Positions 5,111 through 20,109 of a stretch of DNA of 64,000 nucleotides are shown piece by piece. Under the pieces are notes generated by a model that ran no database searches, was not told the origin of the DNA, and saw only the letters and a list, made by a program, of their open reading frames with translations. This stretch comes from Peptococcaceae bacterium BICA1-7. Its GTDB lineage: Bacteria; Bacillota; Desulfotomaculia; Desulfotomaculales; Desulfocucumaceae. The stretch's first letter is position 1. Each line of letters begins with the position of its first letter. Location: contig JUEB01000013.1 of assembly GCA_000802095.1 (NCBI GenBank), positions 1 through 64,000 on the forward strand. The letters are read 5' to 3'. Position numbers and translations under genes: made by a program.

Positions 5111-5785
5111 TTATACTTGAAGAGCATTTACTATTACCGTGACAGCCTCAGCCCTGGTGGCATTATCCCCGGGCCTGAAGGTGTTGTCGGGATTTCCCTT
5201 GATAATCCCGTATTTCACCGAGGTGGCTACGGCTTCCCTGGCCCAGGCGGAAATGTCCCAGCTGTCGCCAAAGGATAATTGTTCATTTGCCGGTGTAAGC
5301 TTGGCCGCCTTCACCGCCATGACTGCCATCTGCTCCCTGGTAATGGGGTCGTCGGGGCCAAAGGTGTTTTGGTCAAAGCCGCTGACAATATCATAGGCCA
5401 CCGCCGTAGAGATATAGTCCCTGGCCCAATAATTGGCTGTGTCAACAAACACCTTGCCCTGCTTGGGCTCAAGTTTAAAGGCCTTCACCAATACCGTGAC
5501 GAACTCGGCCCTGGTGATGTCGTTATCGGGCCGGAAGGTGCCGTCCGGGTACCCGGTGATGGCGCCCAGGGAGACCAGCTTTTCGATGTTGTCTTGCGCC
5601 CAGTTGCGGACGATGTCGCTCAAGGTCACCGGCTGAGTCGAGGGCTGCGTCGTGTTGGCGGTGTTCACAGTCATCGTATAGGACTCATTTGCAGAGTTGT
5701 TGTTCTTGTCTTTAACTGTTACGGTGAAGGTGTACGTTCCAGCTGAACTGCTCCCCTTTGAGTAGACACCTGAAAAAACAAAAAT
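5111..5785 (-). pseudogene. SLH-domain surface protein, C-terminal remnant
   Basis: The frame encodes three S-layer homology motifs (ITGYPDGTFRPDNDITRAEF; IVSGFDQNTFGPDDPITREQ; IIKGNPDNTFRPGDNATRAE), a full triplet of the kind that binds pyruvylated secondary cell-wall polymer. It ends in VNALQV plus a stop at 5111. Upstream of the SLH part is the end of an Ig-like domain (AGTYTFTVTVKDKNNN). The frame stays open only to a stop at 5786–5788, with no signal peptide and no ribosome site. The large N-terminal part that SLH proteins carry is therefore absent. The first ATG (5674) is internal. A foldback inverted repeat sits exactly at the break (5751–5806). It probably derives from a large S-layer-associated protein and is unlikely to be exported. 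Confidence 0.75.
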
Positions 5786-6142: not shown

Positions 6143-6448
6143 CTAAATTGCGGCTGCAGCAGCCGGTACCGCTGCTGTGGTTGTAGAGGTACTATATGCT
6201 ATTTCCTCTTCTTTAGACAAACCGCCTGCCACCTGACTCAGGTCCGCATCCGTCAGCTCATCTTTGCTTTTGGTCAGAACTTCGTGCAGCTTTTTCATGC
6301 CTGAAATAAAATCATCAAGCAATAAACCGTCTACCGCTCCCCGGGCGACATCATAGGCTTCCTCAGGACTTTTAGCTGCCACCAGCCTGTTTTGCAATTC
6401 CTCATCCTGTACCAGTTTGTCAAGAAAATTTTTCATTGCGTCCGTCAT
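6143..6448 (-). CDS. Nif11-type RiPP precursor peptide
   Basis: This 101-residue peptide has the hallmarks of a Nif11-like leader. It has an acidic helical N-terminus (FLDKLVQDEELQNRLVAAKS, then PEEAYDVARGAV) and an end reading ELTDADLSQVAGG. The VAGG double-glycine is the expected cleavage site, at about residues 73–76. The predicted core is the last 25 residues. It has no Cys, an acidic start, a hydroxyl-rich run (YSTSTTT) and the alanine-rich tail AAVPAAAAAI. The ATG has GGGAGG at good distance. It is the last gene of a minus-strand cluster behind a radical SAM protein and two YcaO proteins, so it is the likely substrate of all three. No peptidase-transporter for double-glycine leaders is encoded nearby. 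Precursor identity is well supported; the modifications are inferred. Confidence 0.85.
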   Translation of the reverse strand: MTDAMKNFLDKLVQDEELQNRLVAAKSPEEAYDVARGAVDGLLLDDFISGMKKLHEVLTKSKDELTDADLSQVAGGLSKEEEIAYSTSTTTAAVPAAAAAI

Positions 6449-6537
6449 ACTGCTTAACCTCCCTTATATTATTTATCACCAGGCCCGGAGGCCTTATGAC
6501 CAGGAAAACACCATTAAAATTTACTGTAACAGCACCA

Positions 6538-8541
6538 TTACATATCTTTTAACCACTCACATGCTGAAATTACCTGGGCAATACTTTTTTTATTGTAAGC
6601 GGTTTCATAGGTAGCCAGGCTCAGCGCCCGGCCGCCCACAATCAACAGCAGTTTCCATTCCTGAAGCCTGTTGACAGCTTCATCTAATTCCCCTTGTTTT
6701 ACATCCATCCCAAAATGGGGGTTGAAGCTTTCCCGAAGTGCGGCAACCGGCCGGGGCCGCCTGCAGTATTTATGCACTTTATGTTCCAGCCCTTCAAGAG
6801 AGAATTTATTCTTAAAGGCACATTCCCTGGTATCGGTAATGATTGTTTTATTTTCTTCCACCCGCATTAATAATCTGGGCCGTCCGTCAAACCTGTAATC
6901 TACAGGCAGGCATGTCCCCAGTGATGAGTTGAAAAAGGCTTTAAACCAGTCTTTATAACATGCCCTCAGACGCCGGGAACCCGGGCCTTCCCCTCTAATG
7001 CCCTTGTTATTGTCTTCAAAAAAATAAGCCATTTTTTTAATTTCACTGCCTGCCACAGGGTAGATGGACGAATATGTTCTGAACGGCGACAGATCAAGCC
7101 CAAATAAATCCTGTTGATAAAAATAATGGCTGTAGCGGTCAAACCTGATGGTGCATATATCAATGGGCGGCTCCAGATGAAAAATTAAAGGAAGCCACCG
7201 GGATGTTTTATCATTCCAGGCATCTTCCTCCCCCGGCATTGCAATCAGGTAATTCCACGATACTTTCACGCCGTTCTCCAGAGCATATATTAAGAGGGCC
7301 ACATTCCCAGCAGCGGAATTGCCCTTGTTCATCAGCTTTAAGGCATTATCGTTCAGGCTTTCTATGCCCGGCTGAATACGGTTGACCCCGGCCTGTTTCA
7401 AGGCCTTAACATGCTGCTCATTTAAGTTGGATTTGGTCTCGAAGAAAAATTGCTTTTGGTCCGGGCCGGTTTCGGGCAACCTTGGAAAAAGTTCTTTAAA
7501 ATATCCCATATCCATAATATTGTCCGCGACAAAAAACCTGTGTTGAGCATACTTTTGCGACATCCCGGAAATTTCATTTATTATTCTGCCGGCGGATTTT
7601 CTCCTGTACCTCATCTTATTGCCGTTAAGTCCGCAAAAACTGCATTTTCGTTTCTGGCCCCACCAGCAGCCTCTTGATGTCTCTATTACCAATTCAGGAA
7701 TTATGGTTTCTTTTCCTGACAATTTCTCCAGTTCCTCAAAATAGTCGTTATAATCAGGCATGGGGATTTTGTCCATATCATCCACCAGGACCACCGGCGC
7801 GGTCATATCATTGTCATCAGATGCGCTTGCATATTCCCGGGAAATCACCCCGTAAGGCAGTTGGTCCTGCTTTAAAGCTGTTTTACCGGCAAGCGCCAAC
7901 GCACAAAATTCGGGAAAGTTAAAGTCTGCTTCTCCCGACATCACAAAATCAAGCCAGGGGAAACACCTTAAGGCAGCCTGCCCCATAACCCCTTCGCAAT
8001 TACCCCCGCCCATTATGGTAATGACGCCCGGATCCAGTTCCCTTATTTTCTTCAGCAGGGCCAGAGAAGAGCAGTGCTGCTGAAAGGTTGAGCTGCAGCC
8101 TACAATTAAAGGTTTCATTTCCAGGATTCTTTCTGCCGCTTCCCCAATGAAGTTATCGGCCTCTGTTCTTATCTCCCAGAGGATATCCCGGAAGTTGGCG
8201 TTAATATTTGTATGTTTGTAATAATTCTTCAGAAATATATCTATCAATTTATCTTCATGATATGAAGATATGGCCATAGAAAGGAAGTCGTCGGCCCCGT
8301 CCTGATGGTCCGGAAAAGCCGCCCCGGAAAATGTCCATTCAGCCAAAAGGCTGCCGGTATTTAACAAATAGCAGACCATATTGTATTTTATCAGACCGAT
8401 TTTTTCCGCAAACCAGAATCTGGCATATACAGCCCTGGCATCAATACCTTTTTCTTTTGCGGCTGAAACCAGCTGGCCGATACCTAATGAGGGCAAATGG
8501 AGCAATTGATACGGCATAGAGACAAGGCATACATCCGGCAT
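6538..8541 (-). CDS. RiPP-maturation radical SAM protein (B12-binding type)
   Basis: In this 667-residue protein the motif ETSRGCWWGQKRKCSFCGLN places the cluster cysteines at C292, C300 and C303, a Cx7CxxC variant. That motif is the signature of the radical SAM family that matures ocin/Nif11-type RiPPs. Residues 1–210 form a cobalamin-binding-like Rossmann region (LIVGCSSTFQQHCSSL; VITIMGGGNCEG; DFVMSGEAD). Family members are known or proposed to methylate unactivated carbons using methylcobalamin. The start abuts the stop of the upstream YcaO gene without a gap, so the two are translationally linked; the precursor gene follows 89 bp downstream. The alanine/valine-rich core tail is a plausible methylation target (inference). 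The family call is firm, the exact chemistry is not. Confidence 0.88.
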   Translation of the reverse strand: MPDVCLVSMPYQLLHLPSLGIGQLVSAAKEKGIDARAVYARFWFAEKIGLIKYNMVCYLLNTGSLLAEWTFSGAAFPDHQDGADDFLSMAISSYHEDKLIDIFLKNYYKHTNINANFRDILWEIRTEADNFIGEAAERILEMKPLIVGCSSTFQQHCSSLALLKKIRELDPGVITIMGGGNCEGVMGQAALRCFPWLDFVMSGEADFNFPEFCALALAGKTALKQDQLPYGVISREYASASDDNDMTAPVVLVDDMDKIPMPDYNDYFEELEKLSGKETIIPELVIETSRGCWWGQKRKCSFCGLNGNKMRYRRKSAGRIINEISGMSQKYAQHRFFVADNIMDMGYFKELFPRLPETGPDQKQFFFETKSNLNEQHVKALKQAGVNRIQPGIESLNDNALKLMNKGNSAAGNVALLIYALENGVKVSWNYLIAMPGEEDAWNDKTSRWLPLIFHLEPPIDICTIRFDRYSHYFYQQDLFGLDLSPFRTYSSIYPVAGSEIKKMAYFFEDNNKGIRGEGPGSRRLRACYKDWFKAFFNSSLGTCLPVDYRFDGRPRLLMRVEENKTIITDTRECAFKNKFSLEGLEHKVHKYCRRPRPVAALRESFNPHFGMDVKQGELDEAVNRLQEWKLLLIVGGRALSLATYETAYNKKSIAQVISACEWLKDM

Positions 8542-10494
8542 TTAATCCCCCGTCCTTCTCCGGCAACCCGGCCCGGCTGATTTCCAGGCAGCGCGAATAT
8601 GGTCAAAGCCCGCCTGGAGCTGGTCAATCCGGTTTTCCTGATACTTATCTTTCAACCTTATACGCATCTTCCTGATCAGATCATAGGAGCAACTGCTAAC
8701 AGCAGGGCATAAGCGGCATTCATAACAGTCCAGTGATGAATAAAGCTGCTTGATAATCTCCTGAGGATCTCCCGCATACCTGACGACCTGATCCAAAATA
8801 TCCTGATTATAAAATTCTTTTAATAACCCAACCGCCTCCTCAGTCCCGGCGCCTCTTTTGACCGCTCCGGCATAATCTCTCAGGCAGGCGTAGAAAACCG
8901 CTTCATCTTTACCGGCGCCGCGCATCCTGGCGGCCACATACGAAAATCCCCGGTGCGCCTCCGCAAACATGCCCAGCCGGTAACAGCATGCGGCCAGCAA
9001 TAAGTCTGCCGCCAGTCCGCCGCCGGGAAAAAAAGGTTTCAGGGGCAGCCCGGCGTTATATTCCAGGGTATTCTCAAGGAACCAATTTCTTTTATAAGTT
9101 AAATAACGGACCAGCTTTTCCAGCTCGTCGCCGGAGGCTGCAGGCAGTTTCCGCAGGATCTGTCTGACGGCATCCAGGGAGCTTTTTTCCCTGAACCTCA
9201 GGGTGCCAAAATTAAAAACTTCGCTAAAGCCGGGCACAACCACCTGGTAGCTGCAAAATCCCAGAAATGATACGTCCCTGACCATGATATCCAAGCCTTT
9301 TTTCGCCAGCAAGCCGGTGGTATATTCCAGAAGCCCGGCATTTGTTTTCTCCTTATAATCAATAAAAGGGGTAAATTCATAGCTGCTTTTACCGGCAAAA
9401 AACTCTTCAGGGTATTGCCCTGAAGCCACCTTTAACAGATTATGCAGATTATCGGGAGCGCCGGTGCTTTCGAAACCGCCCGAGATATGGCAGTTTTGAG
9501 AGGCAGAGGAGATATCCCGGCCCTGGAACATTTCGGTAAGAGTCCTCTCCAGAGCTATTTCAAAATCCGGATGGGCACCGAACTTGACTGCATACGACTG
9601 GGTATTCAGATTGATAAGGACGGATGCAACAACAGGAAACCCGCTGCCAAGTGAGCAGTCTTTAAATATTAACCGGTAGTCTCCGGTGCTCTCAATCTGT
9701 TCTTTAATATCGTACAGACGTTTATACCTGCGGCAGTACCAATCGGGTATGGCCGGAGGGGTCAATTTATCCCTGATGATTTTGATATTGGAGTTTCGTT
9801 CGAACAGCTCCGACAATCCCTGCAACAACGCTTCTTCCCGGTTGTTTCCCGCACATGTCCCATTGCTGCCGTATATGGCCCTGAGGACTGATACCGGCAT
9901 ATAACACAATTGTGCGGTCTTCAGGCTGTAAAAGGGGACCGCTACAAAATCATGGCTGCACCCCGGCGGGACGGAAAAACGCCATTTTTTAAGGGCTTCG
10001 TACTTTCCGCCTTTTTCTCCTTCCGGATGGAATAACCTGGCCCCAATCAAACTGAGCGTACCGCTCCCGGGTTTGATTTGATCATCCTTTTGCCGGATTA
10101 ACTCCAGGAGCTTATCAACCCATGGATTATCCTCTTCAGAAAGTTCCTCTATACTCATCAGCCTTTCGTCCGGCGCATAGAAAAAACCGCCATACTTCCA
10201 GGTCTCTTCGTCATAATCGCCGGTATAAAGCAGGTCATTTTGCATTCTTTCCATCAGCTCTGCATACGCGCTGGCCAGGGCGTATGCAGGCGTAGCCCCT
10301 TTGCCGTTCTGGCCCAGACCTGTCCCGGCAATCTCCACCCTAAGCGATTGACACCCGTCAACCCCGGAGTCTGTCCATTTCTCAATAGTGGCAATACCAA
10401 GGCCGTGCAAAATGCCCCTTACTTTTGAAACAGTATCCAGAGGGGGAATTTCCTTATAACGGGTATGGGCGGCAGTATTTATTGGATAACTCAT
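8542..10494 (-). CDS. YcaO-domain peptide-modifying protein (copy 1) with C-terminal Cys motif
   Basis: This 650-residue protein has a YcaO domain over about residues 20–430. The nucleotide and Mg-binding motifs are visible as SAYAELMER (75–83) and EALLQGLSELFER (221–233). YcaO enzymes phosphorylate a backbone amide oxygen with ATP, giving azolines, amidines or thioamides. Residues 500–585 are helical and TPR-like, and the tail carries CX2CX2CX5C (C590, C593, C596, C602), which could bind zinc or an iron-sulfur cluster. The E. coli-type proline-rich C-terminus is absent. Its ATG overlaps the stop of copy 2 (ATGA), and its stop abuts the radical SAM start. No TfuA, E1-like or ocin-ThiF partner and no obvious leader-binding (PqqD-like) domain is encoded beside it, which is unusual. 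The reaction is unknown. Confidence 0.85.
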   Translation of the reverse strand: MSYPINTAAHTRYKEIPPLDTVSKVRGILHGLGIATIEKWTDSGVDGCQSLRVEIAGTGLGQNGKGATPAYALASAYAELMERMQNDLLYTGDYDEETWKYGGFFYAPDERLMSIEELSEEDNPWVDKLLELIRQKDDQIKPGSGTLSLIGARLFHPEGEKGGKYEALKKWRFSVPPGCSHDFVAVPFYSLKTAQLCYMPVSVLRAIYGSNGTCAGNNREEALLQGLSELFERNSNIKIIRDKLTPPAIPDWYCRRYKRLYDIKEQIESTGDYRLIFKDCSLGSGFPVVASVLINLNTQSYAVKFGAHPDFEIALERTLTEMFQGRDISSASQNCHISGGFESTGAPDNLHNLLKVASGQYPEEFFAGKSSYEFTPFIDYKEKTNAGLLEYTTGLLAKKGLDIMVRDVSFLGFCSYQVVVPGFSEVFNFGTLRFREKSSLDAVRQILRKLPAASGDELEKLVRYLTYKRNWFLENTLEYNAGLPLKPFFPGGGLAADLLLAACCYRLGMFAEAHRGFSYVAARMRGAGKDEAVFYACLRDYAGAVKRGAGTEEAVGLLKEFYNQDILDQVVRYAGDPQEIIKQLYSSLDCYECRLCPAVSSCSYDLIRKMRIRLKDKYQENRIDQLQAGFDHIRAAWKSAGPGCRRRTGD

Positions 10495-12302
10495 ATAGCA
10501 CCTTCGGTAGGGAAGATGTCAGCCAGCTTCTCCTGATCTACAGGATTAGCCGCATATCTTTCTTTCAGTAATTTATGGACCCGCTCAGTCTCTTTGTAAC
10601 AGCAGTATCCCCTGGCCTGGCAGTTGTCACAATCCCAGCAGCTGAATTCAGGATAGATCCGCCCAAACACTTTATCCGGGTCATGCAATTGATCGGCAAC
10701 CCTCTGGGCAATCTCCGGCGAGTACATTTTCCGCAGCATGGAGTATATCTCTTCCGGACTTAAACCTCCCGACCTGGCGGCGGCATAGTCTGCCATACAT
10801 TTAAAATAGCGGCACTCATCAGTACCGGCCTCCTCATTCACTGCGGCCACATATCGGAAAACCGGGCAGGCTTCCTCCAGCCTGCCAAGTTTATACAGGC
10901 AAATTGCCAGGAGAAAGTCCACATCGGCGCTGCCGCCCGGCAACGCTTTAACCAGCGGCCTCCCGGCAATCATACTCATCTGGTTTTCGATCAGGGACTG
11001 CCTTTTGAAACGAATATATCTGACCACTCTTTCAAGATCTTCCTGTGAAGCCCGGTTAAAGTTTCCGACGGTTTTGGATATGGCCTGGTATGTTTTCAGT
11101 TCCCTGGCCCTGACCAGGTCTACCGGGTACATTTCACTGAATCCGGGAATAATGATCTGATAACTGGGAAACCCCAGGAATGAAACATCTCTTACCAGCA
11201 GGTCATAGCCTTGTTTCACCAGGAGTTTAACCAATCCCTTAAGCATTGTTCTGTTTATTCCGGTATTTTCATCCGTGAACGGAGTGAATTGGTAACTGCA
11301 GTTATCCGTGAGCAGTTGTGCCGGGTAGTTACCCGCGCCTGTTTTGGCGATATTTACAGCATTGTCCCGATGGTTAAGGATACGGTCATCAAAGCTGATC
11401 AGGCAGCTTTTGGTAAAATCTTCAATATTCCGGCCCTGAAAGGCTTCGGTAATGGTCCGCTCCAGGGCAACTGGAAATGAAGGATGGACACCAAGTTTCA
11501 TGCCAAAGGACCCTTTACAGGTATCCAAAATGATGGTTCCCACCACCGGATATCCTTTTCCCAGGGAACAGTCCTTTACGATAACCCGGTAGCGCCCGCT
11601 TTTTCTGATAGACTGGATAATGTCAAAAAGGCCGGGGTAATTCATCAGGTACCGGTCAGGAATAGTTGGGGGAGTTATCCGGCCTGTAATCAGTTGTTTA
11701 TTCACATAACGTTCGAACGCTTCCGATAACCCCTGAACCAGGGCTTCTGCGGGAGTATTCCCGGCGCACATCCCGTTGCTGCCGTATAAGGAGCAATACA
11801 TATCATATAACAGGTATTCAGTTTTCCTCCTCTTTAAGCTGTAAAAGGGAACCGTGACTGCTTTGGAGGGATAACCCGGCGGATTAAAAACCGTCCAGGC
11901 TTTTATGGCTTCCTCCCTCTCATCGCTTCCAATTTCAGATCGTATGCCGGTGCTTTCTGAAAGGACATAATTCAGCATGGCATTGTCCATTTCCGCCAAT
12001 TCCTGATAAGAGAAGTATTTTTCATCGGGGGTGACCAGAAAACCGGCGTGATGAGTGGCATCACTACTGAAATTTCCGAGATAGAGAATCCTGTTTTGCA
12101 TGCGTTCCATCAGTTCAGCATAAGCGCTGGCCAGAGCATAAACCGGATCGGTTCCCTTACCGTTTGAACCCATGCATGTTCCGGCTATGGTAACCCGAAG
12201 GGAATAACAGCCATCGATCCCGGATTCCACCCACTCATCAATGGTCAGCAACCCCAGGCCATGGAGAATATTTCTTATCTGGTGGACAGTATCTTCCGGC
12301 AA
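10491..12302 (-). CDS. YcaO-domain peptide-modifying protein (copy 2) with C-terminal Cys motif
   Basis: This protein of about 603 residues is paralogous to the next gene along its whole length (DTVHQIRNILHGLGLLTIDEW against DTVSKVRGILHGLGIATIEKW). YcaO motifs are SAYAELMERMQN near residue 60 and EALVQGLSEAFER near 205. The same TPR-like region and CX2CX2CX5C tail occur (C555, C558, C561, C567, with an extra C568). The TTG at 12302 has AAGGA only 4 bases away. The frame continues upstream to an ATT codon at 12335 with GGGAG 9 bases before it, and residues encoded there (YNRFKDT) match copy 1, so the true start may be further upstream. Two non-identical YcaO proteins suggest a heteromer or two separate backbone modifications (inference). 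Confidence 0.82.
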   Translation of the reverse strand: MPEDTVHQIRNILHGLGLLTIDEWVESGIDGCYSLRVTIAGTCMGSNGKGTDPVYALASAYAELMERMQNRILYLGNFSSDATHHAGFLVTPDEKYFSYQELAEMDNAMLNYVLSESTGIRSEIGSDEREEAIKAWTVFNPPGYPSKAVTVPFYSLKRRKTEYLLYDMYCSLYGSNGMCAGNTPAEALVQGLSEAFERYVNKQLITGRITPPTIPDRYLMNYPGLFDIIQSIRKSGRYRVIVKDCSLGKGYPVVGTIILDTCKGSFGMKLGVHPSFPVALERTITEAFQGRNIEDFTKSCLISFDDRILNHRDNAVNIAKTGAGNYPAQLLTDNCSYQFTPFTDENTGINRTMLKGLVKLLVKQGYDLLVRDVSFLGFPSYQIIIPGFSEMYPVDLVRARELKTYQAISKTVGNFNRASQEDLERVVRYIRFKRQSLIENQMSMIAGRPLVKALPGGSADVDFLLAICLYKLGRLEEACPVFRYVAAVNEEAGTDECRYFKCMADYAAARSGGLSPEEIYSMLRKMYSPEIAQRVADQLHDPDKVFGRIYPEFSCWDCDNCQARGYCCYKETERVHKLLKERYAANPVDQEKLADIFPTEGAI

Positions 12303-12374
12303 GGTATCCTTAAAGCGGTTATAATTATAATTCTTAATTTAGGTCTACTCCCATTCTTAATTTAATTTAAATAA

Positions 12375-13283
12375 TCAGATATAGTCCCCTGTAACCAATA
12401 CATTTGCCCCGCCGTACCATTCCCAGATATGGTTTTCTCCATTATTTACAAGGAGAAAATCGCGCTTTGCCGATAAAAGCTCCAGGTATCTCTCACATTC
12501 CTCTCTGCTTATATAATCCCATACTTCCTCAAGTTCCATAAAATTTAGCAGTTTTTCCCGTTCTGCTTCATACATGCCCTTTATGTATTCCTCTTTATCG
12601 TTGGCGGACAGAGCTGCGTTGCTAAGGGAAAATGCCTTGCCCACAGGATATAGGCACACATTTTTCAGGCCTGATTCGGCAAAGAAGTGGGGAATTTCTG
12701 ATGAAGGCAGCCCCCGGGTATAATTAGAAAGGGGATTAATGGACTGGTACATTCCCGATACTTTAATTTCCAGCTTAAGCAACTCGTTATACCATGCGCA
12801 CTCAGGCGGATAATAGCCCTTGTGCCAGGTTTGATTGACAATAGACATGGCGGTAATGGATGCAATCGTACCCCCGGGCCTGGTTACCCGTATCATTTCC
12901 GAAATTGCTTTTTGGGGATCTTCTGCGCTGGTAAAAAATGTATGACTAAGCACCGTATCAAAGCTTTTTTCAGGAAAGGGCAGCGCGCAGGCATCTCCGG
13001 TTATAAATTCAAGTCTGCCGGCCAAACCATTTTTTTCAGCCAGCTCAAGGGCATGCCGGATAAAAGCGGCATCATTGTCAATACCGGTAATTCTCAGGCC
13101 TTTAGCTCCACCGGCAATATAACGGGTAAAGCAACCTGTCCCGCAGCCCACGTCCAGCAGTTCCATGCCCGGCTTGATGCGGCAGTATTTGACAATCAGG
13201 GGCTTAAAGTCATCATTTAATAATACTTTTCTGGTCATTTCCAAAAAGATAGGATTCTGAAAATATTTTGACCATTTCATCAT
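12375..13283 (-). CDS. Class I SAM-dependent methyltransferase, RiPP cluster
   Basis: This 302-residue protein has the Rossmann methyltransferase motifs. Motif I is LLDVGCGTGCFTRYIAGGA (residues 39–57), the acidic residue after strand 2 lies in ITGIDNDAAF, motif II is GDACALPFPEKSFDTVLSHT, and a post-motif reads MIRVTRPGG. This is the Methyltransf_11/25 type and acts in the cytoplasm. It is the first gene of the minus-strand cluster, about 70 bp before the second YcaO gene, and starts at tandem ATGs behind AGAAGG. Co-transcription with the YcaO, radical SAM and precursor genes makes N-, O- or C-terminal methylation of the peptide the likely job. A role in unrelated small-molecule methylation cannot be excluded. 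Confidence 0.8.
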   Translation of the reverse strand: MMKWSKYFQNPIFLEMTRKVLLNDDFKPLIVKYCRIKPGMELLDVGCGTGCFTRYIAGGAKGLRITGIDNDAAFIRHALELAEKNGLAGRLEFITGDACALPFPEKSFDTVLSHTFFTSAEDPQKAISEMIRVTRPGGTIASITAMSIVNQTWHKGYYPPECAWYNELLKLEIKVSGMYQSINPLSNYTRGLPSSEIPHFFAESGLKNVCLYPVGKAFSLSNAALSANDKEEYIKGMYEAEREKLLNFMELEEVWDYISREECERYLELLSAKRDFLLVNNGENHIWEWYGGANVLVTGDYI

Positions 13284-13662: not shown

Positions 13663-16600
13663 CTATTCCGCAGTACCAATTTTAAAGCCGGTATACGCAA
13701 GCTGTCCGACAGCTTTTATAGCACTGAAAACGCCCGGGTCCACCGCCATTTTCCCTGCGTTGCTCATCAGGCCGATAATGTCCGCCCCTATGGCGTTGCG
13801 GTAGCCGTTGTTCCACAGGGCGCTGACGCTGTCTCCGCTGCTGTAGCCTGCCACCAGGAGAACTCCCAGGGCATCGGCCCAGCCGTAGCCGTCCTCGTTC
13901 AGGGTGACTACCGCATCGCCCACGGAGAGGCCGCCCAGGCGCAGGGTGCAGAGGGCCGTTCCGTCGGTCAGCCCGGGGTCATATAAAGTGCCGGTGAAGG
14001 GGTTACGATAGCTTTCTATTCCGTTAACATCCTGCAAATACTTGCCTCCCACCGTCTTCATGGCTTCTAAAACAGCTTTCCTGGTAAACATATTGTACGG
14101 ATCGATGGCGTGGGCATTAAGGCCCCTGGCGATATCCACCAGGCTTAAGGATAATTCCGGCCTGTTTTTACCCGCCGTGTACAGGGCCGTGGCTATGTCG
14201 GTGGCCGACAGCCTAAGCCTGGGGTTGTGCTCCTCTATTGACCTGCCGATGCTGTAATCCCCCATGATGCTCACCATATCCGTCACCCCGACCCCCAGCT
14301 TCAGAAAGGCCCCGGCAGTGTCCGCCAGGCTGTAGCCGGCGCTGATCAAATATGAATAGGCATGGGCGCAGCGGAAAATGAAGTGACCATTGCCGTGAAG
14401 GCCAACGAAAGCCACCAGGCCCCCGGCAAGATCGTCGATGCTATAGCCCAGCTTTTTCAAGGCATTGATGACCGGCGCCAGGCCCTGCTCCGTCCACTGA
14501 TTATTCAGGGCATCTATCATGTCCACCAGGGCATAGTCGTCCTTTTTAAGCCAGGAGGCTGTCTCCTCCAGGCTGTAGCCCTTGTATCTAAGTATTTCCG
14601 CGGTATGCACCGATTTCAGGTTGAGGTCGCCGGGATGGGCCGACCCCAGGATGGCCGCCAGGTCATCGTCCTTTTGCCCGTTCTCCTCGGAGGACCTCAG
14701 CCAGGTGAAGACGCCGTTGCCTTCATATACCGTAATGCCGGAGGCCAGCAGGGACTTGGCCACGGCAGCGGATCCGGTGCCGGGAAATACTTTCCGAAGC
14801 TGGGAAACGATATCATGCAGGCCGTAATAGTCCCTCACCTGCGGCATCTGCTTAAGCAGTCCGCCCAGGGCCACGGGGTCGCTCAGACCATATGCGTTTT
14901 TCAGCACCAGCAAAACGTCTTCCCGGGCATAAAACAGCACGGCCTCCAGGGCCTCCCCTTCGGAGTAGACCTCCTTCAGATATGAAAAGGCCCTGGAAGG
15001 ATCTTTGGCCCCCATCATGTCGGTCAGCCTCTCGTAGCAGGCGGTGGCATCATTGCCCTGGCTCTTCAAGTACTGGAGATAGACTGTAATATGATCTCCT
15101 CCGAAGACCAGTTGCACCGCAAAGCCAACATCCGACTGCTTATAGCAGCCGCTATTCAGAAGCAAATCGGTGGCGACGGGGGCTGTGACGTTGTACAAAT
15201 CCTTCAGCACCTGTGCAATGCTGCGAAGATTGTAGCCGGCCTGGTTAAGCGCCTGGATTGCCCCGGCGGGGGTGGTAACGCCGGCAGCCTGCAGCATGGC
15301 AGCGATGTCCCCCTGTTTTTGCTGGTATAGGCTCTGGAGAATCTGGGCCAGCATCATGAAGGCTTCGGCGCTGGGAGTGCGTTGGTAGAAGGCATCCAGC
15401 AGGCCGCTTAACACATCGTTCTGCCCGTAACCGGCCTGGTCCAGGTAGGTGGCCAGCTTAAGAGGGTCATTGACCCCAAAATTTTGTTTCAGTGAGCAGG
15501 CCACCTGGGTAACCGGGGCGCCTGCGCTCTTCATGGTCCTGATTACAGCCGGAATGGGGTCCACTCCGTAGGCCAGGCTGACCGCAGCCACGATGTCACT
15601 GTCCGACCACCCTATGGCGGTGCCCCCACTGGTTTTTTTCAATAGGTCCAGGGTGGTGTTCTGGTCCAGCGCATAGGCAATTTTAATCCCCAGGGCAATG
15701 TCGTTGAGGCTGTAACCTCCCCTGGCCAGACCTAAAATGGTCATACCCGCCCTGTATTGCGAATACGACTGCCTTGTCCAGCCGGCACCGGCCAGGCCCG
15801 AAGTATATGGTTCTTTATAATTGTACCAGGCCGCCGCATCAGTGGCGGTATAGCCCTGCTGCCTGTAGTCCGATAGCCAGGTTTGGCCGCCTTTCGAATA
15901 CGCTATGTCGGCCACCGCCAGTGGAGACAGCCCCAGCTCCTTGAGCACCCCGATGATATCGCCCGTCGAACTCTTGCCAAGATATCTGCTCATAAGCTCA
16001 ACCAGATCCTTTAACCTATAACGGCCGCTGCTGTTTTCAGTCCAGCCGGCGCCGTACAGTGTTTTGGCCACTTCAACGGCATCCATGTGGTAGTAAGTGG
16101 TAAATACCCAGGTGATTCTGTCCCAGGAATTGTTCCAGTTGGTCAGCATCAAAGCCATCTGCTGGGGGCTGCAGTGCATGCTGTTGACCAGCCAGTCCAT
16201 AAGCCCGGCCAGGTTGCTGTCGTAACCAACACTGATAAGGGTCTGAAAAACGGCCTGCAGGTCGGCGGCAAAGAGCTGCATCACCACCGCTCCGGCGTCG
16301 CCGGGACTGTAGCCTACATTGCGGAATACCTGGGCCAGCAGCTTCATATCAAGGGACGGATAAACACTTTTCAAAATACCCGCCGCCTGGAGAGCGTCCA
16401 GGCCGGCATCGTCTCTCATTATCCTGGCTATATTACCCAGGGTGCTGTCGATCCGAGCCCATTTGTCTTTTTTGCTCCAAAGGTAATTGGCCAGCTCGTT
16501 GGCCCCATAGGCCCTGGCGATCCCTCCGTAGACTGTATCCTGGGAAAACCAGGGACCACTGCCTTGCAGTTTATCCGCGCAGTCTGCCAGCTGATAATTG

Positions 16601-19600
16601 AAGACCGCTCTCATGGCCTTGATCACATCATCAATGCTGTAGCCTGTGTTTTTAAGGCACTGGGCAACCCCCAGATCCAGATGGCCGCTCCATTTCACTT
16701 CCTGGGGGAAGACCTGCTGTAAAACACCGGCCACTGCCACCACATCAAAACCGGCGGCTTTAAGTAAGCCCACCACGGTCTGGAGGGAACACCTGTATGA
16801 TGAATTTTTGAGTGCGGAGGCGATGTCACCGGCCCCGAAACCGGCGTATTTGAGTGCCTCTAGGGCGGCGGCGGCGGTGTCCCCGTAGCCGACTTGCAGT
16901 TCGTTGGCTATTTTAACCGCATCAAAGCCGGCGGCCTTCATGTTTAAGGCGGCCTCCTTGTCAGTTAGCCCAAAGCTTGTGGCAAAGGGTACCGCCTCAC
17001 TGTCCCCCCAGCCGGCGGGGTTTTGGGCCCGGGCCCTGTATTCATACTTAGTGCCGGGCTTAAGGCCATTAAGCTTTAGGGTGAAGGTTCCCGGGCCGAA
17101 GGAGCCCTGCTGGCTGCCGGCATCCACCCAATCCTTGCTGCCGGCCAGGCGATACTGGAACTGGCGCGCGGCGCAGGTCACCCCCGGCCCCCCGGTGTCG
17201 GTGATGTTTCCGGTGAGTGTGGCCGAAGTTGACTCAACGGCGGAGTTGTCGCTGCTGCCGGTGAGCACGGGAAGATTGGGCATGGCGAGGCTGACGGACC
17301 CACCGTAGCCCGGGCCCACCTGGTTGACGGCGTAGGCCTGCACGTAGTAGGTAGCACCCGGCGACAGGTTGGTCAGGCTGTATATACCGCCGGAGGTGAA
17401 GTCTCCGGTGTGTTCCTGGCCCATCACCAGGCTGGTCCAGTTCTCCTGGCCGGTGCCGTACCTGAAGCCATATTCAGTCAGGGGAGCGCCGCCGTTGGAG
17501 GCGATGTTACCCTTTAAAACGGCACCCCCGCCGGCGGAGTCAAAGGCCGCCGGGGCAGTGGTAACCACCGGTGTGGTGGCCGGCCGGGTTGTAAAGCTTT
17601 CGGTGCTGCCGTAGCCGGTGCCCTCGGAGTTGACGGCGTAGGCCTGGACGTAGTAGGTGACCCCGGCCTGGAGGCCGCTCAGTGAGTATGAGAGAGAGCG
17701 GCCGTCATCACCGGGAGGAGCACTGACCACCAGGTTGCCCGGCTGGGGGTCGGCCCCCCACAGAAAGCCGCTGTCGGTGATGTCAAAGCCATGGTTTTTA
17801 TTGATAAAACCTTTTAATTGGGCAGAGTTTGGACTTACCCCGGCGGGGGACCGGGTGTCCACCTCCGGAGCGTTGGTCAGTGTGGAAAAGCTCATACCCG
17901 AAGAAGAGTAGAATTTCCCTGCCCCGTTTATGCCGAAGGCTGTGAAGTTGTATGTGGTTCCCGGTTTAAGCCCATTAACGGCCAGGGAGAAAGAGCCATC
18001 TGCGGCAGGGGCCGTATATACCTCTCCGGTAAAGCCGCTGATGGAAAAGCCGCAGTCCACGTCAGTTCCGCCACCCTCCACCTTACCGTGGAGAGTTGCT
18101 GTTTCAAAGCCCACATCGGTGGCTTCCAGGGTGGTTACAGTCATAGGCGGCGCCAGCGGGGTCGTAAAGGACAGCAGGTCGCCGTAGCTGGTGCCGGCCG
18201 GGTTGGTGGCGTAGGAACTGAAATAGTATTTGGTATTCTTTTTCAGTCCATTTATATTAAAGGACAGGGTGCCGTCCTCCCCCGGGGTGACGCGGACCTT
18301 ATTCATGTTAGACCCCAGTTGGACGAAGGTGCCCCAGGAGAAGCCGCTGTCGGCAATTTCGGCCCCTCCATTATCTGTTATGGAGCCATTTAAGGTGGCG
18401 GTGTCAATGTTGACACCGGTGGCGGCCCGGGTTACCACCTTGGGAAGAACCGCCGAGGTGGTGGTGAAAAAGTTAATCTGTCCTTCGCCCCAGCCTTCCG
18501 TATTGTACGCCCTGGCCTCAAATTCGTACCTGGCGTTGGGCTTAAGCCCGGTGATCCGGGCGCTGAACTGCCCCCCATTGTCCAGGGAGACAGACTGTAT
18601 GCCGGTATCCTGCCAGCTGCGTTCTCCCAGCAGCCGGTACCGGAAATTGACCTTTGTGCAGGGAGCGCCGCCGGTGCTGCTTATACTGCCGTTTAAGGTG
18701 GCCTGGGTCAGGGTTATGCCGGTGGCAGGCTCTGTATTTACCTCCGGCTCGGTAACCACTGGCGGAACTACGGGTGGCGGAGGTGGCGGGGAGGGGCCGC
18801 CCCCACCGCCATGGCTGGGAGCAGCGACTGTATATGCTGCCATGGCCGTGCCGCTCCAAAGCCCGGTGCCTGAGTCAAAAACCTTCGCTTGCACCTTCGT
18901 GGTGGCGCCCGCCGCCAGCGTCAGGGAGAACTGTCCCTGGTAGAGAGGGCTGGTAACCGCCGGCTCAGTGCCGTCCGTGGTGTAGTAAACAGCCTGCCCT
19001 GCGGACAGGTTGGCGGTAATGCATACGGTCACAGTCTGCGGTGAGGCGAAGTGGCCTCCGCCCGGAGTAATGGCGGGAGCATCCGGTGACACATCGGGAA
19101 CAAGCTGAACCATTAATACTTTATTGGATCCTGAATCGGAGATATAGAGATTGCCGTCGCCGCCTATGGCCACTCCCGTAGGCTGGTTGAGCGGGGAACT
19201 GGTGGCCGGAACCCCGTTCAGGGGACTGCCCCGGGTTCCGTCGCCGGCCACGGTTGTTATATCGCCGCCGGTATCCACTTTACGAATACGGTAGTTGCCG
19301 GTATCGGCTATGTACACGTTGCCGGCGCTGTCCACCGCCACCCCTTCAGGATGACTCAGCTGAGCATCTGTGCCATCCCCGGCCACAGTGGCAATTATAC
19401 CGGCGGCATCCACCTTGCGAATCCGGTTATTGTCGGTGTCGGCTATGTAAAGGTCGCCGGCGGCGTCCACCGCCACTCCCCGGGGGTTGTTTAGCGGGGT
19501 TCCGGTGGCCAGGACTCCGTCTTCCACGTAACCCGAGGCACCTGGTGTTCCGGCTGCTCTGGTGATGTCTCCGGTGGACTTGTCTACTTTCCAGACAACA

Positions 19601-20109
19601 CTATCTGATTTGTCAGTGAAATAAATTGGGCTGCCGCTGCTATCCACCGTAACTCCGCCGGGAAAGTATACTTCAGTCGGCACAGAAACGGTATGGTCAT
19701 CGGTATATATAAAGATTATGGGTGGTTCACCGGGGACGTACAGACAGCCGTCAGCATCCACGGTTACGCTGCCGGGAATGCCAAGCGGGCCAAGGTTTAG
19801 GCTATCGATATCACCGGTAGACGCGTCCACCATGCGCACACGACGGGTACCATCTTCGAAAGGATTGCCCTCGTTGAAAATATAAATGTTGCCACCACTG
19901 TCCACTGCAACATCCGTGGGTTTATTCAGCTGAGCGCTGGCGGCCGGACCCCCGTCACCGCCATCCCCGGCGGCTCCATCACCGGCGACCGATGTGATGT
20001 CATTAATGTTGGCATATAGTGTTGGGGGCATACCGGTTATGATCAACGAAAAAATTACCAGGAAAACCAGCATCTGATGAGCAAATTTCTTTGTCTTTAA
20101 TGACAGCAT
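13663..20109 (-). CDS. Giant secreted NHL / fn3 / helical-repeat protein
   Basis: This 2148-residue protein starts with a signal peptide (residues about 10–33, LVFLVIFSLIITGMPPTLYA). Residues 35–330 hold six NHL-type repeats (GVAVDAAGDLYIADTDNNRI), a likely beta-propeller. A chitobiase/hexosaminidase C-terminal-like domain follows (335–415, YYTTDGTEPAVTSPLYQG), then a Gly/Pro linker (PSPPPPPP) and about seven fn3-like domains to near residue 1080 (LKPGTKYEYRARAQNPAGWG). The last 1060 residues are degenerate helical repeats with a core like LKxAGYSxxDIAxxLKxxY, for which no family is recognised. No SLH, LPXTG or transmembrane anchor is seen. The gene sits directly downstream of a two-component system and behind a promoter with paired 11-bp repeats. 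Signalling, adhesion or matrix roles are possible; the function is unknown. Confidence 0.85.
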   Translation of the reverse strand: MLSLKTKKFAHQMLVFLVIFSLIITGMPPTLYANINDITSVAGDGAAGDGGDGGPAASAQLNKPTDVAVDSGGNIYIFNEGNPFEDGTRRVRMVDASTGDIDSLNLGPLGIPGSVTVDADGCLYVPGEPPIIFIYTDDHTVSVPTEVYFPGGVTVDSSGSPIYFTDKSDSVVWKVDKSTGDITRAAGTPGASGYVEDGVLATGTPLNNPRGVAVDAAGDLYIADTDNNRIRKVDAAGIIATVAGDGTDAQLSHPEGVAVDSAGNVYIADTGNYRIRKVDTGGDITTVAGDGTRGSPLNGVPATSSPLNQPTGVAIGGDGNLYISDSGSNKVLMVQLVPDVSPDAPAITPGGGHFASPQTVTVCITANLSAGQAVYYTTDGTEPAVTSPLYQGQFSLTLAAGATTKVQAKVFDSGTGLWSGTAMAAYTVAAPSHGGGGGPSPPPPPPVVPPVVTEPEVNTEPATGITLTQATLNGSISSTGGAPCTKVNFRYRLLGERSWQDTGIQSVSLDNGGQFSARITGLKPNARYEFEARAYNTEGWGEGQINFFTTTSAVLPKVVTRAATGVNIDTATLNGSITDNGGAEIADSGFSWGTFVQLGSNMNKVRVTPGEDGTLSFNINGLKKNTKYYFSSYATNPAGTSYGDLLSFTTPLAPPMTVTTLEATDVGFETATLHGKVEGGGTDVDCGFSISGFTGEVYTAPAADGSFSLAVNGLKPGTTYNFTAFGINGAGKFYSSSGMSFSTLTNAPEVDTRSPAGVSPNSAQLKGFINKNHGFDITDSGFLWGADPQPGNLVVSAPPGDDGRSLSYSLSGLQAGVTYYVQAYAVNSEGTGYGSTESFTTRPATTPVVTTAPAAFDSAGGGAVLKGNIASNGGAPLTEYGFRYGTGQENWTSLVMGQEHTGDFTSGGIYSLTNLSPGATYYVQAYAVNQVGPGYGGSVSLAMPNLPVLTGSSDNSAVESTSATLTGNITDTGGPGVTCAARQFQYRLAGSKDWVDAGSQQGSFGPGTFTLKLNGLKPGTKYEYRARAQNPAGWGDSEAVPFATSFGLTDKEAALNMKAAGFDAVKIANELQVGYGDTAAAALEALKYAGFGAGDIASALKNSSYRCSLQTVVGLLKAAGFDVVAVAGVLQQVFPQEVKWSGHLDLGVAQCLKNTGYSIDDVIKAMRAVFNYQLADCADKLQGSGPWFSQDTVYGGIARAYGANELANYLWSKKDKWARIDSTLGNIARIMRDDAGLDALQAAGILKSVYPSLDMKLLAQVFRNVGYSPGDAGAVVMQLFAADLQAVFQTLISVGYDSNLAGLMDWLVNSMHCSPQQMALMLTNWNNSWDRITWVFTTYYHMDAVEVAKTLYGAGWTENSSGRYRLKDLVELMSRYLGKSSTGDIIGVLKELGLSPLAVADIAYSKGGQTWLSDYRQQGYTATDAAAWYNYKEPYTSGLAGAGWTRQSYSQYRAGMTILGLARGGYSLNDIALGIKIAYALDQNTTLDLLKKTSGGTAIGWSDSDIVAAVSLAYGVDPIPAVIRTMKSAGAPVTQVACSLKQNFGVNDPLKLATYLDQAGYGQNDVLSGLLDAFYQRTPSAEAFMMLAQILQSLYQQKQGDIAAMLQAAGVTTPAGAIQALNQAGYNLRSIAQVLKDLYNVTAPVATDLLLNSGCYKQSDVGFAVQLVFGGDHITVYLQYLKSQGNDATACYERLTDMMGAKDPSRAFSYLKEVYSEGEALEAVLFYAREDVLLVLKNAYGLSDPVALGGLLKQMPQVRDYYGLHDIVSQLRKVFPGTGSAAVAKSLLASGITVYEGNGVFTWLRSSEENGQKDDDLAAILGSAHPGDLNLKSVHTAEILRYKGYSLEETASWLKKDDYALVDMIDALNNQWTEQGLAPVINALKKLGYSIDDLAGGLVAFVGLHGNGHFIFRCAHAYSYLISAGYSLADTAGAFLKLGVGVTDMVSIMGDYSIGRSIEEHNPRLRLSATDIATALYTAGKNRPELSLSLVDIARGLNAHAIDPYNMFTRKAVLEAMKTVGGKYLQDVNGIESYRNPFTGTLYDPGLTDGTALCTLRLGGLSVGDAVVTLNEDGYGWADALGVLLVAGYSSGDSVSALWNNGYRNAIGADIIGLMSNAGKMAVDPGVFSAIKAVGQLAYTGFKIGTAE

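Follow-up and report, generated by a model that had tools for sequence, protein, structure and literature searches.

What do two YcaO proteins make of a short, cysteine-free peptide when their usual partners are missing from the operon? This question is raised by five adjoining genes on contig JUEB01000013.1 (assembly GCA_000802095.1) of Peptococcaceae bacterium BICA1-7, of which the first 64,000 nucleotides, referred to here as the window, were analysed. Open reading frame checks and profile searches identified a minus-strand operon with genes for a methyltransferase, YcaO-B, YcaO-A, a radical S-adenosylmethionine (SAM) enzyme and a Nif11-leader precursor of a ribosomally synthesised and post-translationally modified peptide (RiPP). 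The description that fits the cluster best is a lah-type variant with a B12 radical SAM enzyme and twin YcaOs of the Escherichia coli type. To the reading as a whole, a lah-type RiPP that would receive a C-terminal methyl ester, C-methyl groups and, from the twin YcaOs, thioamides, we give a probability of about 0.58.

In the proposed pathway, the modifying enzymes would be recruited by the Nif11 leader to a core that is short, free of Cys and rich in Ala. Methyl groups would be placed on unactivated carbons by the B12 radical SAM enzyme, probably in the Thr/Val/Ala stretch. Both YcaOs would use ATP to phosphorylate amides of the backbone and would exchange their oxygen for sulfur, with sulfide and without TfuA. 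The presence of two diverged YcaO copies suggests that they differ in site specificity or form a heterodimer. Methyl esterification of the C-terminal Ile would fall to the LahSB-type enzyme, and cleavage of the leader at Gly-Gly and export of the product to a C39 peptidase-transporter whose gene lies at another place in the genome.

The five tightly packed minus-strand genes announced in a preliminary description of this DNA are all present: an ATGA overlap joins the YcaO-B and YcaO-A genes, and the radical SAM gene abuts that of YcaO-A. The features are as follows.

12375..13283, minus strand: LahSB-type SAM-dependent C-terminal carboxylate methyltransferase, assigned by phmmer to LahSB (6UAK) and by a family profile
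10491..12302, minus strand: YcaO-B, E. coli-YcaO type, catalytic domain and C-terminal domain resembling tetratricopeptide repeats (TPR-like), assigned by PF02624 (154 bits) and an AlphaFold model
10602..10640, minus strand: YcaO-B motif CWDCDNCQARGYC, residues 555-567, from the motif count
8542..10494, minus strand: YcaO-A, anciently diverged paralogue of YcaO-B, ATP motifs intact, assigned by PF02624 (180 bits) and its own tree clade (97/98)
8689..8727, minus strand: YcaO-A motif CYECRLCPAVSSC, residues 590-602, from the motif count
6538..8541, minus strand: putative B12-type radical SAM C-methyltransferase (rSAM_ocin_1), assigned by TIGR03975 over its full length and CX7CX2C
6143..6448, minus strand: Nif11-leader RiPP precursor, 101 residues, PF07862 over cut-off
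6146..6220, minus strand: predicted core peptide LSKEEEIAYSTSTTTAAVPAAAAAI, 25 residues, the stretch after the double Gly

The gene set and its relatives

The genome search proposed in the preliminary description, for twin YcaOs together with a Nif11 precursor and a radical SAM enzyme, recovered the set in G424 and G1244, two genomes from the host's order and a different family. Both have the order Nif11 - methyltransferase - YcaO-B - YcaO-A - radical SAM - LanM, and the five proteins shared by the window and G424 are 61-72% identical. As the modifying genes are identically ordered in G424 and G1244, the gene set is beyond chance. At a further locus, in G1269, the order is YcaO - methyltransferase - Nif11 - YcaO, with neither radical SAM nor LanM among these genes. 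Three loci come from Lachnospiraceae. G623 carries five Nif11 precursors, the methyltransferase, two YcaOs, a SPASM-type radical SAM enzyme and two ATP-binding cassette (ABC) transporters. RGIG3762 (L006/L035) encodes the methyltransferase, two YcaOs, LanM, a flavin mononucleotide (FMN) reductase and a SPASM radical SAM enzyme, and also has transporter genes, a radical SAM protein resembling YydG and a large number of Nif11 precursors. The contig of RUG14268 (L007) ends inside a YcaO, followed by LanM, an FMN reductase, a radical SAM enzyme and eleven Nif11 matches.

Constant to all uncut loci are thus Nif11, the LahSB-type methyltransferase and two YcaOs, and in six genomes the twin YcaOs are tightly linked to methyltransferase and Nif11 genes; the radical SAM enzymes and a LanM that has lost its CHG motif are accessories to this core. 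In each of the five genes, the ratio of nonsynonymous to synonymous substitution rates (dN/dS, Nei-Gojobori) lies at about 0.1-0.2; the values are rough, with window-G424 dS near saturation. Recurrence in other lineages under purifying selection indicates that the gene set is a functional unit.

Within the host's class, YcaOs of this cluster type occur in 4 of 113 genomes, and a phylum-wide search with YcaO-A as the sole query found the host alone (1/398). A plasmid search with YcaO-B returned distant homologues at best (26-32% identity), mostly from Pseudomonadota. The cluster is real, conserved and rare. Single E. coli-type YcaOs, with no twin, were observed in other possible peptide clusters (L033:9423-14158 in G506; L034:8548-17976 in G575), and an E. 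coli-type YcaO also lies on a short contig assigned to a metagenome-assembled genome of Methanosarcinales (L009:1054-2856).

The precursor and its C-terminal residue

The Nif11 leader named in the preliminary description was recovered with PF07862 (29.1 bits, cut-off 23.8); TIGR03798 of NCBIfam scored 30.0 bits, slightly below its cut-off of 32.3, and the profile for nitrile-hydratase-like leaders 15.5 bits against a cut-off of 50.9. Ahead of the Gly-Gly cleavage site the window leader has V-4, L-7 and L-12, and a double Gly with hydrophobic residues at -4, -7 and -12 is found in 22/22 precursors counted by an automated pattern filter, which omitted some precursors, likewise with Ile, Val or Met as the last core residue. 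Hydrophobic residues at these positions are the leader rule of the C39 peptidase LahT (PMC10885120); as the window leader fits this rule, leader cleavage in trans is plausible.

The core LSKEEEIAYSTSTTTAAVPAAAAAI is Ala-rich and Thr-rich, with an STSTTT stretch and the ending PAAAAAI, and the G424 and G1244 cores have the same length and ending. Its 25 residues include no Cys, so that thiazoles are impossible, as the preliminary description had stated. All 22 counted precursors end in [A/S/G]-[I/V/M] (18 Ile, 3 Val, 1 Met), and cloning primers for LahA precursors encode the endings AAGAI, AATAI, SAGAV, LAV and SAM in 5/7 cases (PMC6363468). Across the cores, no internal Lys or other amine is conserved, and the residues right after Gly-Gly vary. 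The G1269 core DAIDNLKQLAGLFAI, whose gene lies between the methyltransferase and one of the two YcaOs, contains no Ser, Thr or Cys.

The closest solved relative of the methyltransferase (METHYLTRANSFERASE) is LahSB (6UAK), matched by the window protein in phmmer with 291 bits over residues 2-299 (E 6.4e-86). The family profile gives 413 bits with LahSB and at most 85 bits with any other methyltransferase. By sequence comparison the protein is a full-length LahSB orthologue; the gene had been recognised before, and its generic label, class I methyltransferase, is replaced by LahSB-type. The gene was seen solely in genomes carrying twin YcaOs, including both of the genomes in which it occurs in a sample of 378 Lachnospiraceae. 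An AlphaFold model of the methyltransferase was of middling quality (pLDDT, predicted local distance difference test, 74) and was set aside.

On LahA peptides, LahSB places a methyl group on the carboxylate of the last residue, which is Met, Ile or Val, and it needs neither a leader nor another enzyme to do so (PMC11285071, PMC10373908); its recognition appears limited to the last 15 residues or fewer (PMC10952241). LahSB orthology, the [A/S/G]-[I/V/M] ends and PAAAAAI in the window core together argue strongly, by analogy, for a methyl ester on the C-terminal Ile, the best-supported modification of the peptide. That a C-terminus is the target also gives some room to another role for the YcaOs, one or both of which might be ATP-dependent peptidases of the MusD kind, with 7U58 as precedent, trimming the C-terminus to expose the residue to be methylated. 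We regard this as very unlikely, given that LahSB takes C-termini without prior processing (PMC10952241) and that the last encoded residue is already Ile, Val or Met in 22/22 cores.

Type and chemistry of the twin YcaOs

Both paralogous YcaOs of the preliminary description match PF02624 (YcaO-A 180 bits, YcaO-B 154 bits), with the correction that they are only about 43% identical along their length; that both are of the E. coli type had been missed there. The ATP-site motifs AELMER, SE..ER and ER..TE..QG are retained in both, and neither has a PxPxP tail. The AlphaFold model of YcaO-B (pLDDT 90) aligns with E. coli YcaO over 547 residues including the TPR-like domain (Z 39.1), as compared to the catalytic part alone for all other YcaOs (Z about 23 or less); this comparison was made with YcaO-B, and YcaO-A is tied to the E. 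coli-type fold by its 43% identity to YcaO-B. With NCBIfam NF040716 the window YcaOs score 227 and 244 bits against a cut-off of 700. As judged from these scores, they are related to the E. coli YcaO group and are not the S12/uL16 equivalog.

For YcaO-B, homology runs upstream of TTG 12302 (12303-12338), where YNRFKD matches G424. The only upstream start candidate past the stop is ATT 12338, with GGGAG nine bases ahead of it, and this rare ATT start is on sequence grounds the probable one, rather than TTG 12302.

In the YcaO tree, A and B form separate clades (97/98 and 99/99), each with members from the host, G424, G1244 and G623, so the pair is old; a recent duplication is ruled out by the age of the two clades, which are also found in G623. 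RGIG3762 has two B-clade copies, and the G1269 copies pair with each other.

Given sulfide in vitro, E. coli YcaO thioamidates uL16 at Met82, and E. coli is without TfuA (PMC13063428). With E. coli YcaO as the closest characterised relative, the pair could be imagined to act on uL16 or another cell protein, the RiPP genes being mere neighbours. However, strong acidity is the reported mark of the uL16-modifying members of the group (PMC13063428), and the computed isoelectric points (pI) are 5.8 and 6.4 for the window YcaOs versus 4.4 for E. coli YcaO. The tight linkage to methyltransferase and Nif11 genes in six genomes likewise speaks against it. Action on a cell protein is thus highly improbable, and uL16 itself is rejected as substrate because of pI and gene context. 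The same study (PMC13063428) places a few non-acidic members of the group in RiPP contexts, and with their near-neutral pI the window YcaOs fit this kind.

The preliminary description had rightly found the usual YcaO partners missing. A TfuA profile search of the whole host genome gave a single match of 18.8 bits, below the cut-off and with in-frame stops, and the operon has no E1-like/ocin-ThiF or dehydrogenase genes. The new backbone chemistry suggested there is nevertheless not required: as E. coli YcaO thioamidates in vitro without TfuA, missing partners do not alone imply new chemistry, and the better fit is thioamide formation, a known backbone chemistry, acting on a novel type of substrate. 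Sulfur might yet be delivered by a new mechanism. In thioamitide biosynthesis, YcaO-TfuA pairs put several thioamides iteratively into a short core (PMC8153245). By analogy, backbone thioamides are with moderate confidence the likeliest reaction of the twin YcaOs.

Oxazoline formation is a classic YcaO reaction, and the Thr-rich window core, with STSTTT, would offer sites for oxazolines or methyl-oxazolines. The lack of the E1-like/ocin-ThiF partner, of a dehydrogenase and of the PxPxP tail makes this improbable for the window. In G1269, whose core has no Ser, Thr or Cys, the YcaO reaction cannot be azoline formation, and this core together with the lack of partner genes rules out azolines as the common reaction. 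The same core would fit amidine formation as well, which requires neither Cys, Ser nor Thr and no TfuA, and in which an amine serves as nucleophile to give N-terminal amidines or macrolactamidines. Against amidines stand the nearest characterised relative by sequence and fold, E. coli YcaO, which is a thioamidase, and the cores themselves, with no conserved internal amine and variable residues after Gly-Gly; we consider them unlikely.

Several points weigh against thioamidation and the reading built on it. Identity of the window YcaOs to E. coli YcaO is about 23%. The target of E. coli YcaO is a folded, basic protein, and with a short-peptide substrate here its chemistry may not transfer. In related clusters the B12 radical SAM enzyme is accompanied by other enzymes or gives way to them (LanM, SPASM radical SAM, FMN reductase), so that part of the chemistry varies, and the product of the cluster is not known.

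The motif CxxCxxCx4-6C lies near the C-terminus in 12 of 13 cluster YcaOs (CWDCDNCQARGYC and CYECRLCPAVSSC in the window), the exception being the A copy of G623 (G623_A), and in none of 7 outgroup YcaOs, E. coli included. It could be a zinc site, an iron-sulfur site or a sulfur carrier. Tentatively, and with more doubt than confidence, we picture a TfuA-free pair of E. coli-type YcaOs that puts several thioamides into an Ala-rich core, with metal or persulfide bound by the four Cys delivering the sulfur. Such a machine, if real, would yield a product that carries a methyl ester at its C-terminus along with thioamides and C-methylated residues.

Accessory enzymes, export and known systems

The radical SAM enzyme matches TIGR03975 along its entire length (628 bits, cut-off 282, positions 1-606/606), which bears out the earlier assignment to the B12 type; the motif given with it is corrected to CX7CX2C, kept in G424 and G1244. 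The family name of TIGR03975 points, with moderate confidence, to C-methylation. Beside the window genes there is no LanM; the sole LanM of the genome lies on host contig C17, amid other precursors. In four clusters a LanM adjoins the YcaOs, and its cyclase domain is without the CHG zinc motif, which, as far as sequence can tell, would fit a dehydratase that acts on cores with almost no Cys and forms no lanthionine rings. As a missing partner, the C17 LanM is not supported: it is 38% identical to the G424 LanM, keeps CHG and is surrounded by precursors with nitrile-hydratase-like leaders. With no local LanM, Thr dehydration in the window cluster is not predicted with confidence.

The window cluster has no C39 peptidase-transporter; one is encoded on C17, together with a homologue of an uncharacterised protein of about 370 residues. 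In G1244 the RiPP genes are preceded by this protein, an ABC transporter, an extracytoplasmic function (ECF) sigma factor and the gene of a short peptide with Gly-Gly; the host has relatives of the last two on contig C7, with 72% (sigma factor) and 52% (peptide) identity to those of G424. Conserved beside these clusters, at L020:16038-16897, L047:2187-3064, L031:8242-9108 and L006:516-1357, is an ECF sigma factor with, after it, a short protein that has a leader-like ..AGG motif near its end; the short protein is perhaps an anti-sigma or peptide-sensing partner. A conserved protein of about 280-370 residues adjoins transporter and sigma genes at L047:1069-2157, L020:16900-18000, L054:3502-4638 and L032:15491-16336, the last copy giving no match in an NCBIfam search.

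Two other RiPP loci were observed in the host. The first (L031, C7, 4269-9108) contains an ECF sigma factor, a short Gly-Gly peptide and a Nif11 precursor; its PoyD-type epimerase (467 bits) and its radical SAM enzyme of TIGR03975 make a pair like that of polytheonamide, here combined with a Nif11 leader. The second (L029 and L054, C17) has an array of precursors with nitrile-hydratase-like leaders ending in GYGY or GFGY, as well as LanM, radical SAM-like proteins, the C39 transporter and a second ABC protein. The neighbours of the window cluster, an SLH-domain protein (5111-5674) and a 2,148-residue protein (13663-20109), do not look like part of it, and a promoter and terminator scan gave no signal beyond shuffles.

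The cluster was compared with the lah system of Lachnospiraceae bacterium C6A11 (LahA precursors, LahSB, LahM1/M2, LahT). The two share double-Gly Nif11 leaders with the -4/-7/-12 rule, an orthologous methyltransferase and cores ending in Ala followed by Ile, Val or Met. In the host, a C39 transporter acting in trans might export the product. In contrast to lah, the window has a B12 radical SAM C-methyltransferase, as predicted above, and no local LanM; lacking this dehydratase, it is filed as a lah variant, not as a plain member. The RiPP cluster with an unusual enzyme set of the preliminary description is genuine, but it is not an orphan: by its methyltransferase and its type of precursor it falls within the lah family, which is partly characterised.

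The YcaOs share with E. coli YcaO the full-length fold with TPR-like domain (YcaO-B model), intact ATP motifs and the lack of TfuA; they differ in being paired paralogues in a RiPP operon, with near-neutral pI, the Cys4 motif and a predicted short-peptide substrate. Thioamitides (thiostreptamide S4, thioviridamide type) resemble the predicted product in YcaO thioamidation of a short hydrophobic core, but use a YcaO-TfuA pair and differ in precursor, methyltransferase and YcaO type. Polytheonamide-type proteusins (poy) have a hydrophobic core that is C-methylated by a B12-type radical SAM enzyme, as is predicted for the window cluster, whereas their leaders are nitrile-hydratase-like, as against a Nif11 leader and twin YcaOs here; proteusins are not known to have a YcaO. 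Dehydrazole clusters (DUF4135, YcaO and dehydrogenase) recall the sister clusters, where a CHG-less LanM-type dehydratase stands beside YcaOs. The present type differs in its YcaOs, in having no dehydrogenase and in not requiring azole-forming residues, and the window has no LanM; neither a DUF4135 protein nor a dehydrogenase was found beside the window YcaOs in the open reading frame list or by profile search.

If the lah-type reading with thioamidating twin YcaOs is true, the E. coli-type branch of YcaOs would gain a link to RiPP biosynthesis in which the substrate is identified and encoded by a gene, and the sulfur source of TfuA-less YcaOs would become testable in a small system of two enzymes and one peptide. 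Methyltransferase and twin YcaOs would then be the probable core reaction set of lah-type peptides.

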